64,000 nucleotides of DNA from Polynucleobacter sp. AM-7D1. Its GTDB lineage: Bacteria; Pseudomonadota; Gammaproteobacteria; Burkholderiales; Burkholderiaceae. Below are positions 26,775-35,610 of this stretch, in pieces. A program made the position numbers and the translations under genes. The stretch covers positions 1,240,001 through 1,304,000 of the forward strand of contig NZ_CP061319.1 in the NCBI RefSeq assembly GCF_018688455.1, read 5' to 3'. Each line of letters opens with the position of its first letter. The stretch's first letter is position 1. The notes beneath the pieces are model-generated. The model had not been told where the DNA came from. It was given only the letters and a program-made list of their open reading frames with translations, and made no database searches.

Positions 26775-26851
26775 CGCGGGGTGGAGCAGTCTGGCAGCTC
26801 GTCGGGCTCATAACCCGAAGGTCGTAGGTTCAAATCCTGCCCCCGCAACCA
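26775..26851 (+). tRNA. Initiator tRNA-fMet (CAU)
   Basis: A 77-nt tRNA with anticodon CAU in CTCATAA and an encoded CCA end. The acceptor has an unpaired C1-A72 (CGCGGGG against CCCCGCA), and the anticodon stem ends in three G-C pairs (GGG/CCC). Both are hallmarks of the initiator. Its 3' 45 bases are repeated at 35566-35610, marking it as the integration site of the downstream element. The element leaves the tRNA intact. Confidence 0.97.
26807..26851 (+). repeat. attL: 45-bp direct repeat inside tRNA-fMet
   Basis: From the anticodon loop (CTCATAACCC) to the terminal CCA, this stretch is identical over 45 bp to 35566-35610. Bases on both sides of the repeat differ, which defines its limits. 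This is the usual result of tyrosine-integrase insertion into a tRNA 3' end. Confidence 0.93.
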
Positions 26852-26853
26852 CA

Positions 26854-26878
26854 AACCCTTGATTTCAAAGGGTTTTTT
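26854..26878 (+). terminator. Terminator immediately after tRNA-fMet
   Basis: AACCCTT / AAGGGTT stem with a 7-base loop and a T6 run, starting 3 bases after the tRNA. It belongs to the island side of attL. Confidence 0.85.
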
Positions 26879-26894
26879 GGTTTCTGAAGTTCCG

Positions 26895-26928
26895 AAAAGC
26901 ACTAAAGTTAAAACTTTGGTGCTTTTTT
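26895..26928 (+). terminator. Second hairpin terminator at the island's left end
   Basis: A 14-base stem with arms AAAAGCACTAAAGT and ACTTTGGTGCTTTT (one G-T/A-T imperfection), a TAAA loop and a T6 run on the plus strand. Confidence 0.8.
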
Positions 26929-27016
26929 GTTTGTGGACTCAGGGTCAATAGACACATAGCTTTTATTAATAGAAGCTGATCTTAGTTACGACTTAAGACT
27001 CTCATACCCTCTTTTT

Positions 27017-27056
27017 ATAAGAACAATCTCACCCATCAGGAGATTCTTATTTTTTT
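27017..27056 (+). terminator. Third hairpin with T7 run before the HNH gene
   Basis: ATAAGAACAATCTC and GAGATTCTTAT pair with a 2-base bulge and are followed by seven T. Together with the two preceding hairpins it would isolate the island's first gene from tRNA transcription. Confidence 0.6.
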
Positions 27057-27097
27057 GAAAATTTCAAAATTATCGTTAGACAAAAACACTGAACTAC

Positions 27098-32755: not shown

Positions 32756-32950
32756 TTGTCAAAGGTCTTAAATAGAAATCAAATTTTAGGAATTAGAACC
32801 ACTAATGACTTCGTTACGAAGTTCGATTCGTTATGTGACCGACTGGGTTACAACCGAAGTGAAATCATTCGATACGCTCTTAAGAGGTTTTATAACGAGC
32901 ATTTCAACAACCCAGAAGGCTTTTCTAAAGTAAGAAAGGAGCTTTATTGA
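32756..32950 (+). CDS. Ribbon-helix-helix (CopG-like) DNA-binding protein
   Basis: A 64-residue protein with the RHH pattern: a short basic strand (ILGIRTTNDFVTKFDSLCDR), then helix, turn and helix (LGYNRSEIIRYALKRFYNEH). TTG start at 32756 with a perfect AAGGAG 6 bases upstream. Proteins of this type are repressors or antitoxins of mobile elements. The CTTCGTTA-type motifs before and inside the gene are candidate binding sites. It is followed without a gap by a small ORF. Confidence 0.82.
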   Translation: MSKVLNRNQILGIRTTNDFVTKFDSLCDRLGYNRSEIIRYALKRFYNEHFNNPEGFSKVRKELY

Positions 32951-33132
32951 TGATGGGATTTTTAGAGTGGGTTGAATTGAATAAGAAGAAAAAACAAAAA
33001 GAGGAAAAGAATGTCGGATCAATTAGCCAAGCAGATTCAAAAAACGGGGATGTCTATATCAAAGGACAAACTGATCGATTTGATCAAGAAATCCCCGAGC
33101 CAATCGTTTACCGTTTCTCAGAGCCAAGGTAG
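32950..33132 (+). CDS. Small hypothetical protein after the RHH gene
   Basis: A 60-codon reading frame whose ATG at 32950 overlaps the RHH stop (TGATG). A TTG three bases earlier is also possible. The product is very charged (NKKKKQKEEK, residues about 12-21) with no known domain. A second frame (33011-33163) overlaps most of it, so one or both may be real. It could be a toxin, partner or regulator of the RHH protein; there is no direct support. Confidence 0.4.
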   Translation: MMGFLEWVELNKKKKQKEEKNVGSISQADSKNGDVYIKGQTDRFDQEIPEPIVYRFSEPR

Positions 33133-33163
33133 TAAAGCTATGGTCGTGGTGATTAATCAATGA
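33011..33163 (+). CDS. Alternative 50-residue overlapping ORF
   Basis: Starts at ATG 33011 with GAGG 7 bases upstream and reads MSDQLAKQIQKTGMSISKDK onward to a C-terminal KAMVVVINQ. The composition looks more like a folded protein than the highly charged frame it overlaps. Its stop overlaps the end of the convergent mrr-like gene by 11 bp. No family is recognised. Confidence 0.4.
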   Translation: MSDQLAKQIQKTGMSISKDKLIDLIKKSPSQSFTVSQSQGSKAMVVVINQ

Positions 33164-34067
33164 AAAAATCTTCATCAATCTTATTCACATTAAAAGTTTG
33201 AGCGATTCTAGTTCCGACCTGGTGTTCAATCATTAAGCCAACAAGACGCTTACCGTCGATAGGGACAATTCTTGTCTGAATTGTTTTTAGATATTCGAGA
33301 GCCGGTTTAGAAAAGTATGAGGTAGTTACAAAAACACCTTTAGTGGATTGATGACCTGCTAAAGAGCCAACAAATGCTTGAAGCTCAGGTCTACCAATTT
33401 GGTTTTGAGTGTCATATCGCTTTGCTTGAATATAAACAACATCCAAGCCTAATTTGTCTTGGTGAATCACACCATCAATTCCACCGTCACCACTTTTACC
33501 AATCGCTTTAGCTAAAGTTCCTTCACTACCGTAACCCATACCAGATAAAAGCGTCACAACCAGTCTTTCAAAGAAAGCGGGGGTTTGATCTAATATTCTT
33601 TCAAGTAGCTCCCGTTGTAAATCTTCGTCAAGCTCACGAGTGGCTATTTCTAAACGGTCAGTAGGTGTTAATTCAGAAGATGTTTCAGCTTTTAAGATCG
33701 GTTTATCTCCGTCAATCTCAGCCTCCACAGCTGACTGTTTCCTGAATTCATTAAATTCAGCAAATTGAGATAAATCATTATTGTTGAAACCCGTCGGATG
33801 TTGATGGAGAAAATTAACCCCCCTGTCGGTAATTTTATAAATCCCACGGCTAGGTTTAGTTAAGAGCTCGGCTCTTCTTAAATAATGAATAGCCCACCTA
33901 ACTCTATTTCTAATAATTCCTTCACCACTAGGGTAACGAAGCGCCAAGTCCTCTTCAGTAATATTTAATTCAGAGGCTACGATAGCCACATATTCATCAG
34001 CGGTTTTAGCTTCTAAAGAATTCCTAAGAAGGATTGGATAAAAATTTTGATAGGTTGGTAAGCTCAT
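33153..34067 (-). CDS. mrr: Mrr-type restriction endonuclease
   Basis: A 304-residue protein. The N-terminal Mrr_N winged-helix region is at about 1-95 (IRNRVRWAIHYLRRAELLTK). The C-terminal Mrr catalytic domain, about 165-290, has FFERLVVTLLSGMGYG, GGIDGVI (catalytic Asp) and VVYIQAKRY (the QxK of the PD-(D/E)xK fold). E. coli Mrr cuts DNA carrying foreign m6A or m5C methylation. It sits beside the integrase gene in the same direction and coexists with a C5 methyltransferase on the same element. Confidence 0.93.
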   Translation of the reverse strand: MSLPTYQNFYPILLRNSLEAKTADEYVAIVASELNITEEDLALRYPSGEGIIRNRVRWAIHYLRRAELLTKPSRGIYKITDRGVNFLHQHPTGFNNNDLSQFAEFNEFRKQSAVEAEIDGDKPILKAETSSELTPTDRLEIATRELDEDLQRELLERILDQTPAFFERLVVTLLSGMGYGSEGTLAKAIGKSGDGGIDGVIHQDKLGLDVVYIQAKRYDTQNQIGRPELQAFVGSLAGHQSTKGVFVTTSYFSKPALEYLKTIQTRIVPIDGKRLVGLMIEHQVGTRIAQTFNVNKIDEDFFID

Positions 34068-34133
34068 TCCGTAAACCCTGACTTTATTTACACCTTAATT
34101 GATTGATTATTTCATACTAATCATAACTAATAT

Positions 34134-35453
34134 TTACCCTGAAATATTTTTATCAACTTTAATCTTTATAGGCTTTTTCTCAATAAATGAATGTAGTTGT
34201 TTACGAGCCTGAGCCGTTGTTAAATGGGCTCCATAGAACTGTTCAATAACGGCTTGTGAGGTTCGAGCATTCTTAGCTAAAACCAATGTGTCTACCTGTG
34301 AATAGATCAATCTGAACATGATCGAGGTATGACGAAGACTATAGAGCTGAATATTCTTTCCAGTCTTTTCCTGTAGCTTTGATTGAGCCACTACTTCACG
34401 GAAGAGACGACCCCAAGTACTCATCATGGTGGTTCTATTGAGGTAGGTCGGGAAGAAAACATAATCATCAGGGTTAATGTACGGTGATCCTTCAAGCTCC
34501 TCTAGAGCCTTCTGACGCTTCTTATCATCCTGAATTGCTTTTGCTTCTTTAAGCTTTCTAGTGTGTTCGGCTTTTCTAAACTTTACTAGCTCGTTATAAA
34601 TCTCGACACACTCCGGCATTGTCTGTACTTCACGAGCCGTTGTCTTTGTGGCTGGATGAGTCAGAACCAACCACTCGACTGGCTCTCCATCAATATCCTT
34701 ATCGGTCTTACGGTTTACATGTTTATGTTTTAAGACTTTGATATCCGATGGTCTTAAGAATGAGTTAACCATGAACTTATTCAAGAGTTTCATCTCTTCG
34801 GTAATCGGAACACCTCGAACTACAAATCCGTCTTTCGCTAAATCACGAGCCGTATTGTTTAGCTTCGTGTATTCACCCATCGTCAGGAAATCACGCTTTT
34901 CCTTCGTTGTCAGTCTTTCCGAAATCTTAGGAAATAGAGGAATGGATTTGATCACCCCCTCCTCCACACCGTGTTTGAAAATCTTACTCACCAAAGATAG
35001 GTAATGTTTCTTAGTAGCTGGAGATAGCTCCTTTTCATTGAGCTTTTCCATCATCCCGACTAAATCCTTGTGGTCGATCTCGGAAATGAGTTTTTCACCG
35101 AAATGAGGAATCAGGAAATTGTTGATTTTTCCCTTATCGTTCAAATACAGGCTTTTCTTAGCTGTCGTTTTTTCAATATCCAGTAGAGAAACGGCTAGAC
35201 CAGAGAAAGAGCGGGTTTTGACCTTAGATCCAGCCTTACCCCCTTTATTCTGTAAAAGCTCGTAGAAGAACTCCTTAGCTACCTCAATAGCCTCTTTTTT
35301 GACCTCGGTTTTGGTCGATCTCATCCTCATCTGACCATTGACATAAACCCGAGCCCACCAAAAGCGGGAACACTCCACCTTAAAAATGACCAGTTTTTCA
35401 GGGAATTTGGGGATACTTTGTTTAGTCCCCTCTACGATTTTGGCTCGTCCCAC
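34134..35453 (-). CDS. Tyrosine-type integrase
   Basis: A 439-residue phage-type integrase. An N-terminal arm-binding part is followed by a SAM-like core domain (about 85-190) and a catalytic domain. The catalytic domain has FLRPSDIKVL (first Arg), YSLRHTSIMF (box II Arg-His; the usual first His is Tyr) and the nucleophile in VIEQFYGAHL. GTG start. It lies 112 bp inside attR and reads toward the island centre, which fits integration into tRNA-fMet. Confidence 0.94.
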   Translation of the reverse strand: MGRAKIVEGTKQSIPKFPEKLVIFKVECSRFWWARVYVNGQMRMRSTKTEVKKEAIEVAKEFFYELLQNKGGKAGSKVKTRSFSGLAVSLLDIEKTTAKKSLYLNDKGKINNFLIPHFGEKLISEIDHKDLVGMMEKLNEKELSPATKKHYLSLVSKIFKHGVEEGVIKSIPLFPKISERLTTKEKRDFLTMGEYTKLNNTARDLAKDGFVVRGVPITEEMKLLNKFMVNSFLRPSDIKVLKHKHVNRKTDKDIDGEPVEWLVLTHPATKTTAREVQTMPECVEIYNELVKFRKAEHTRKLKEAKAIQDDKKRQKALEELEGSPYINPDDYVFFPTYLNRTTMMSTWGRLFREVVAQSKLQEKTGKNIQLYSLRHTSIMFRLIYSQVDTLVLAKNARTSQAVIEQFYGAHLTTAQARKQLHSFIEKKPIKIKVDKNISG

Positions 35454-35565
35454 GGTGTTTTAACCCCTTTATGACTTTGGTGCCTAGTTTAGTGCTTTTT
35501 AGGGGATGGGGCTAGAGGGTATACAGGATAAGGGGTAAAAAGTCTGGTACTTCGGGACACTGGCT

Positions 35566-35610
35566 CTCATAACCCGAAGGTCGTAGGTTCAAATCCTGCC
35601 CCCGCAACCA
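35566..35610 (+). repeat. attR: 45-bp tRNA-fMet 3' fragment
   Basis: Identical to 26807-26851, running from the anticodon to CCA, without the 5' half of the tRNA. It marks the right end of the island. Confidence 0.93.

Follow-up and report, generated by a model that had tools for sequence, protein, structure and literature searches.

A probable phage-satellite-like defence island of 8.76 kb, with its own gene set, in the initiator tRNA gene of Polynucleobacter sp. AM-7D1

The initiator tRNA gene on the chromosome of Polynucleobacter sp. AM-7D1 carries an AT-rich insert of 8.76 kb. We analyzed this insert within a window of 64,000 nucleotides (contig NZ_CP061319.1, positions 1,240,001 to 1,304,000), and all window coordinates given here count from the first nucleotide of that stretch. 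A previous sequence-only reading of the locus had described a complete integrative element, bounded by perfect 45-bp repeats and leaving the tRNA intact, that matched no known class. The boundary features and the integrase are as follows.

26775..26851, + strand: tRNA-fMet, called as tRNA-Met(cat); integration target, intact
26807..26851, + strand: attL, 45-bp repeat equal to the 3' part of the tRNA
26852..26885, + strand: left end of the element, putative replacement terminator for the tRNA, CAAACCCTTGATTTCAAAGGGTTTTTTGG; 98.8% identical to G105 over 82 bp
34134..35453, - strand: tyrosine integrase (phrog_1, 3.8e-28)
35566..35610, + strand: attR, 45-bp repeat

The attL and attR copies are identical over all 45 nt, and the only other direct repeat listed between 26000 and 36500 is 23 nt long with 78% identity. 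G+C content in 1-kb bins is 0.33-0.40 from 27001 to 35000 and 0.40-0.50 outside, and the tyrosine integrase gene adjoins attR. The repeats, the integrase beside the right-hand copy and the AT-rich cargo were thereby confirmed as first described. When the single contig of this genome (1.93 Mb) was searched at the DNA level, the 3' part of the tRNA was found only as the attL and attR copies, so that the element apparently occupies the sole initiator tRNA gene; the tRNA was also the only RNA family found.

Comparison with related genomes revealed the empty site that the sequence-only reading had proposed to look for. In relative G079, the left flank matches that of the window at 96% identity through 2851 bp, as far as the final tRNA base; a terminator of its own follows and then, about 105 bp past the tRNA, the window sequence from 38203 onwards (93%). 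As G079 also lacks 35611-38203, the gap at the empty site exceeds the element itself. This additional segment of about 2.6 kb holds two open reading frames (ORFs) of 432 and 264 amino acids (aa), O-antigen-ligase-like and methyltransferase-like by eye; the 432-aa protein was found in its own genome only, among 151, at E<=1e-30. Another relative, G105, carries a sister element with different cargo between the same 45-bp repeats, and to the right of its second copy lies a terminator resembling the one that follows the tRNA in G079. Two outcomes had been named that would speak against an element: relatives with the same genes in place without the repeat, or a repeat that is merely a decayed second tRNA. 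Instead, G105 has the genes together with the repeat, and a decayed tRNA was ruled out because in both genomes the second copy is an exact 45-bp fragment that adjoins the integrase gene. The element is thus real, complete and site-specific; it lies in tRNA-fMet and restores the 3' end of the tRNA, as had been proposed. Its left end, CAAACCCTTGATTTCAAAGGGTTTTTTGG, probably acts as a terminator in place of the native one.

A query consisting of the upstream region and the tRNA was matched in all 61 genomes searched. An extra match of 45-50 bp to the 3' part of tRNA-fMet was present in 12 of the 61 (AM-7D1 included), with up to two extra copies, which makes tRNA-fMet an integration hot spot. At five other loci, relatives of the integrase (49-95% identity) lie at most 2 kb from tRNA-fMet-like fragments.

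The genes between the repeats, besides the integrase, and a candidate origin are listed here.

27144..27902, + strand: HNH nuclease, type II restriction enzyme family, cargo (Pfam HNH, 4.7e-6; PADLOC REase_II, 4.3e-80)
27856..28896, - strand: C5-cytosine DNA methyltransferase paired with the HNH enzyme, cargo (Pfam, 1.7e-74; PADLOC MTase_II, 3.7e-97)
28951..29607, - strand: small serine recombinase, 218 aa, in seven family loci (Pfam Resolvase, 4.8e-31)
29960..29985, + strand: candidate replication origin, 8-bp hairpin abutting TATGACC, putative role
30010..30525, + strand: Rep, predicted compact HUH-type (one tyrosine) replication protein, 171 aa; motifs in 9/9 homologues
30517..31056, - strand: u179, conserved in five loci, no assigned function
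31147..31740, + strand: orphan u197, cargo; own genome only, of 186 genomes of the genus
31737..32645, + strand: orphan u302, cargo, overlapping u197 by 4 bp; own genome only, of 274 genomes of the class
32756..32950, + strand: ribbon-helix-helix (RHH, CopG-type) regulator, in nine loci (Pfam RHH_1, 2.8e-4)
32947..33132, + strand: u61, small partner translated after the RHH gene, in nine loci
33153..34067, - strand: Mrr-type type IV restriction enzyme, cargo (Pfam Mrr_cat, 7.1e-32, and Mrr_N, 2.5e-19; PADLOC mREase_IV, 1.3e-79)

The family matches of the HNH nuclease, the C5 methyltransferase and Mrr bear out the restriction genes noted earlier, and no capsid or conjugation family was found among the ten element proteins scanned, again as noted. 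The coupled genes at 31147-32645, for which no function had been recognized, are indeed present but represent private cargo of this genome rather than part of a core. No relative of u302 was found in the phages or plasmids searched; the u197/u302 pair is a possible new defence or toxin-antitoxin pair.

HUH endonucleases share three motifs: a hydrophobic motif with a threonine, HxH, and YxxK. The corresponding Rep motifs (F..T..F, HxH and YxxK) are invariant in 9 of 9 homologues, while Rep itself gave no family match in the libraries scanned. On the basis of motifs I-III, Rep is predicted to be a compact HUH-type replication protein, which upholds its earlier description as Rep-like. Upstream of its gene, TATGACC is invariant in 4/4 aligned closest relatives, and in the window sequence a hairpin adjoins it. 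Folded as DNA, this segment gave z-scores of -0.6 to -1.7, little better than its shuffled versions, so that the origin is put forward as a suggestion.

Since relaxases occur among HUH proteins, and tRNA integration together with a serine recombinase is common in integrative mobilizable elements, Rep might alternatively serve as the relaxase of such an element, moved by a conjugative helper. Family scans of the ten proteins returned no relaxase, coupling protein or secretion gene (no relaxase or coupling family in Pfam even at E<=1), Rep had no plasmid match, and the phage-type promoters and clamp genes described below would be unexpected. We therefore rejected a conjugative or mobilizable element, for which no such families were seen in the scanned proteins, and hold this explanation to be very improbable.

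Next we asked how Rep and its neighbors are distributed. Of the 186 genomes searched in the genus, 9 encode Rep, one copy each, as detected with a profile built from nine sequences; at family rank 3 of 398 genomes matched, all of them within the genus. The nine loci share a core of Rep, RHH and u61, often joined by u179 and the small serine recombinase (RHH in 9 loci, u61 in 9, a protein of about 240 aa termed c4 in 8, the serine recombinase in 7, u179 in 5); c4 is missing from the window element. Cargo varies, with a type ISP enzyme in G074, a type III system in G122 and Zorya A, B and C in G051, in contrast to the HNH nuclease, C5 methyltransferase and Mrr of the window element. Integration modules vary as well. 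G027 has a 41% relative of the integrase at a 48-bp repeat that resembles a tRNA 3' end, yet ARAGORN calls no tRNA there. The members in G005, G074 and G122 adjoin glmS and encode there a 563-574-aa protein with about 31% similarity to the serine recombinase. The gene c45, which adjoins that protein, was considered as host gene of the glmS site and rejected, as its own match was in G005 only (1/16 genomes). Judged by gene content, the family is small and evidently modular, with a shared core and exchanged integrases and defence genes.

Beyond the genus, c4 was found at order rank in 9 of 399 genomes and 8 of 158 genera. It occurs together with an integrase relative at a tRNA in loci L109 and L110, of which L109 additionally has a protein similar to the T4-type clamp loader gp44, and L110 additionally c20 and a relative of the serine recombinase. 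These loci are islands of other Burkholderiales genera, at tRNA-Pro and tRNA-Arg, and hint at a wider superfamily. In solved-structure profile searches c4 gave chance-level matches only and c20 none. Separately, four loci (L035, L039, L041 and L088) share a conserved CAGCGAGTCGAACG stretch upstream of the serine recombinase, a candidate recombination site; a res-like site at this position is seen in several sisters and not clearly in the window or in G105. Repeated TTAACA-N-TTTAAAT motifs lie between divergent genes, upstream of c4 and a neighboring operon, in L039, L041, L034 and L033; they may represent a second promoter or operator class and were not found in the window.

The upstream regions of the core genes in the window element contain a further recurrent motif.

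29858..29866, + strand: T4-late-promoter-like TATAAATAG upstream of Rep; columns invariant in four aligned relatives
31077..31084, - strand: ATAAATAT motif upstream of u179
32719..32726, + strand: CTAAATAG motif, 37 bp upstream of the RHH gene

The window element contains the T4 late promoter sequence TATAAATA a single time, ahead of Rep, and the nine columns of this site are invariant in four relatives. When this sequence was relaxed to [AC]TAAATA, after the other elements had been inspected, a coding-strand copy preceded 22 of 23 core genes, compared with 0 of the 69 other genes, across the nine loci (ORFs chosen greedily by length, minimum 60 aa; upstream segments <25 bp and G040 left out). 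The core genes with the motif are Rep (8/8), RHH (9/9), u179 (4/5) and a 182-aa gene of G063. Its distance to the gene that follows is 32-37 bp for all nine RHH genes and 74-161 bp for eight Rep genes; the ninth Rep gene, in G040, is preceded by TATAAATAC at about 0.1 kb. Under a Markov model of this upstream DNA, 8.2 occurrences are expected (sd 2.9; maximum of 18 in 300 runs) as compared to the 22 observed. A further ten matches were in antisense orientation, because divergent core genes share upstream DNA.

The T4-like phage Melnitz, whose host group is related, was the sole phage reference for promoters. In the 60 bp ahead of 185 Melnitz ORFs, the motif was found 29 times in sense and 5 times in antisense orientation, and the sites include one that precedes the portal gene by 35 bp and one that precedes the major capsid gene by 41 bp. 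The published description of Melnitz reports 15 late promoters, identified by means of TATAAAT (PMC9004378). Host ORFs showed no such excess (sense/antisense 0/1 for 45 ORFs and 2/1 for 41 ORFs). Motif sequence and spacing in the elements thus agree with the late promoters of Melnitz.

A different explanation is that the element's own RHH regulator uses [AC]TAAATA as its operator, or that the motif is a -10 box for the host's sigma-70; the island would then be an ordinary integrative element that replicates like a rolling-circle plasmid and has an unspecified transfer route. RHH proteins frequently regulate their own promoters, the motif precedes the RHH gene in 9/9 loci, and CTAAATAG comes close to being a CTA-N2-TAG palindrome. 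Before Rep and u179, however, the ATAAATAG and ATAAATAT forms show no palindrome, no excess of the motif was seen at host genes, the spacing of the motif is that of Melnitz late promoters, and sister elements hold gp45, the activator of that very promoter class. Taken together, this leaves an operator or host promoter unlikely, albeit the least unlikely of the three alternatives weighed here.

The activator in question belongs to a set of chromosomal T4-type genes located beside Rep. A gp44-type clamp loader is encoded by the sister elements of G005, G074 and G122, and a gp45-type sliding clamp by those of G074 and G122; the hhalign probabilities of the clamp-loader and clamp proteins to Melnitz proteins were 99.9 and 99.7%.

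L041 10211-11583; L039 8743-10456; L040 10781-11422: T4-type clamp-loader (three elements) and sliding-clamp (two elements) genes

In T4, gp45 activates late promoters. Two further sister proteins, c20 and c47, were considered as counterparts of gp55, gp33 or gp62 and rejected, as no similarity was found. In a post hoc comparison, the motifs and the clamp genes of the sisters appear to link the family to T4-like phages.

Such a link would also be expected of an infection-triggered defence island that is no satellite: the motifs would let Rep, RHH and u179 harm a T4-like phage, the clamps and clamp loaders of the sisters would be decoys, and movement would be passive and rare. While the rich and variable defence cargo, the clamp-loader copies without their C-terminal third and the lack of copies in the viral contigs searched are consistent with such an island, the initiator protein and the origin-like hairpin suggest active movement, the swapped integration modules (a tyrosine integrase, or the 563-574-aa protein at glmS) indicate it, and the family is present at unrelated sites. 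We consider a purely defensive island distinctly unlikely, somewhat more so than the operator or host promoter.

Known islands were then compared with the family. In the PLE satellites of the Vibrio cholerae phage ICP1, a lytic phage activates an island with an initiator of its own, much as is proposed here; their initiator, however, is not of the HUH type, and we know of no T4-type late promoters for PLE. PICMIs of Vibrionaceae are similar in being small integrated islands with few core genes and no capsid genes, and they are packaged as concatemers (PMC10803314). PICMIs also have a virulent helper, form rolling-circle-like concatemers and protect against other phages (PMC10803314), traits that are proposed for the window element as well. 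PICMIs lie adjacent to fis and carry int, alpA and a primase gene (PMC10803314), whereas the present elements lie in tRNA-fMet or at other sites and feature an HUH Rep, RHH, u179, a serine recombinase and late-promoter motifs; Pfam and PHROGs scans of the window element's proteins returned no AlpA or primase family. I55 islands, which carry type II restriction cargo and are moved by a jumbo phage, share an RNA-gene target with direct repeats, a tyrosine integrase, type II restriction-modification cargo with variable defence genes, and the absence of transfer genes (PMC12595487). They differ in size (more than about 20 kb), in the tmRNA site and in their alpA, RadC, YqaJ and inovirus-Gp2-like genes, and the excerpts of their description hold no link to late promoters (PMC12595487). 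I55 islands are recognized by intY downstream of tmRNA and by alpA or a 23-bp end sequence, whereas the window element sits at tRNA-fMet and showed no AlpA. Tycheposons of Methylophilaceae also start at tRNA-Met(cat) and encode a tyrosine recombinase, and their other border is glmS; they are large metabolic islands (PMC10872708). Four loci of the family studied here have glmS at their flank as well, with no tRNA-Met in the DNA taken around them, but the Polynucleobacter elements are small, with HUH Rep and defence cargo. SGI1 times its genes by its helper's own activator and then replicates, much as is proposed here, but its helper is a conjugative plasmid (AcaCD) (PMC7826253).

The precedents of PICMIs and I55 islands show that such a lifestyle exists. 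The claim that the element matches no known class was not sustained as worded: its gene set, the cargo and clamp genes of its sisters and the late-promoter motifs point to phage-satellite-like islands with a lifestyle as in PICMIs and I55 islands, but from an unrelated gene family. We favor the reading that the element, as a mobile island with a specific insertion site, belongs with the phage satellites and responds to T4-like phages; we place the probability of this reading somewhat above even. A fuller version, in which these are satellites of T4-like phages with core operons on T4-type late promoters, in some cases their own clamp and clamp loader, HUH-generated concatemers packaged headful and a serine recombinase restoring monomers, is put forward tentatively, and we doubt it more than we believe it.

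In the mechanism that we propose under the favored reading, the late sigma factor, the co-activator and the sliding clamp of an infecting T4-like phage would bring RNA polymerase to the motifs of Rep, RHH and u179, and in some sisters the island-borne clamp and clamp-loader genes may assist there. Int would excise the island as a circle, and Rep would nick the hairpin beside TATGACC to start rolling-circle replication, possibly with parts of the phage replisome. The concatemers would be packaged headful into helper heads, which would make capsid genes unnecessary. In the recipient cell, the small serine recombinase would resolve the multimer to monomers and Int would insert the island into tRNA-fMet, where the restriction genes would protect the host from other phages. 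Excision, replication and packaging of the element are thus proposed steps.

Several observations weigh against a satellite of T4-like phages. A solved-structure profile search with Rep gave no HUH protein and chance-level matches only. The window element itself lacks c4 and clamp genes, and the gp44-type proteins of the sisters are without the C-terminal third. The motif class and the list of core genes were picked after seeing the data, the loci are related, the 182-aa gene of G063 was assigned to the core solely by its position, and in G005 u179, although a core gene, has no motif; owing to these choices and dependencies, the Fisher value for the motif is not a probability. No T4-like phage of Polynucleobacter was identified. 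Searches with Rep, c4 and the attR-side junction found no such element in viral contigs, a collection that may exclude records near this genome; the serine recombinase reached a single relative there (33%) and again no such element, the clamp-loader profile reached one viral contig with a weak match (31%), and Rep was unmatched in phage and plasmid records. Finally, the concatemer, headful and resolvase steps are proposed by analogy.

In a literature search judged by titles and abstract openings, we found no description of a satellite paired with a clamp, a clamp loader, a late promoter or late transcription. On balance, we read the island in tRNA-fMet as a defence island that resembles phage satellites but has its own gene set. 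If this holds true, T4-like phages would be a helper class for defence islands of abundant freshwater bacteria, and the trigger would be late transcription, dependent on the replisome clamp. The movement of small defence islands without transfer genes would thereby become directly testable.

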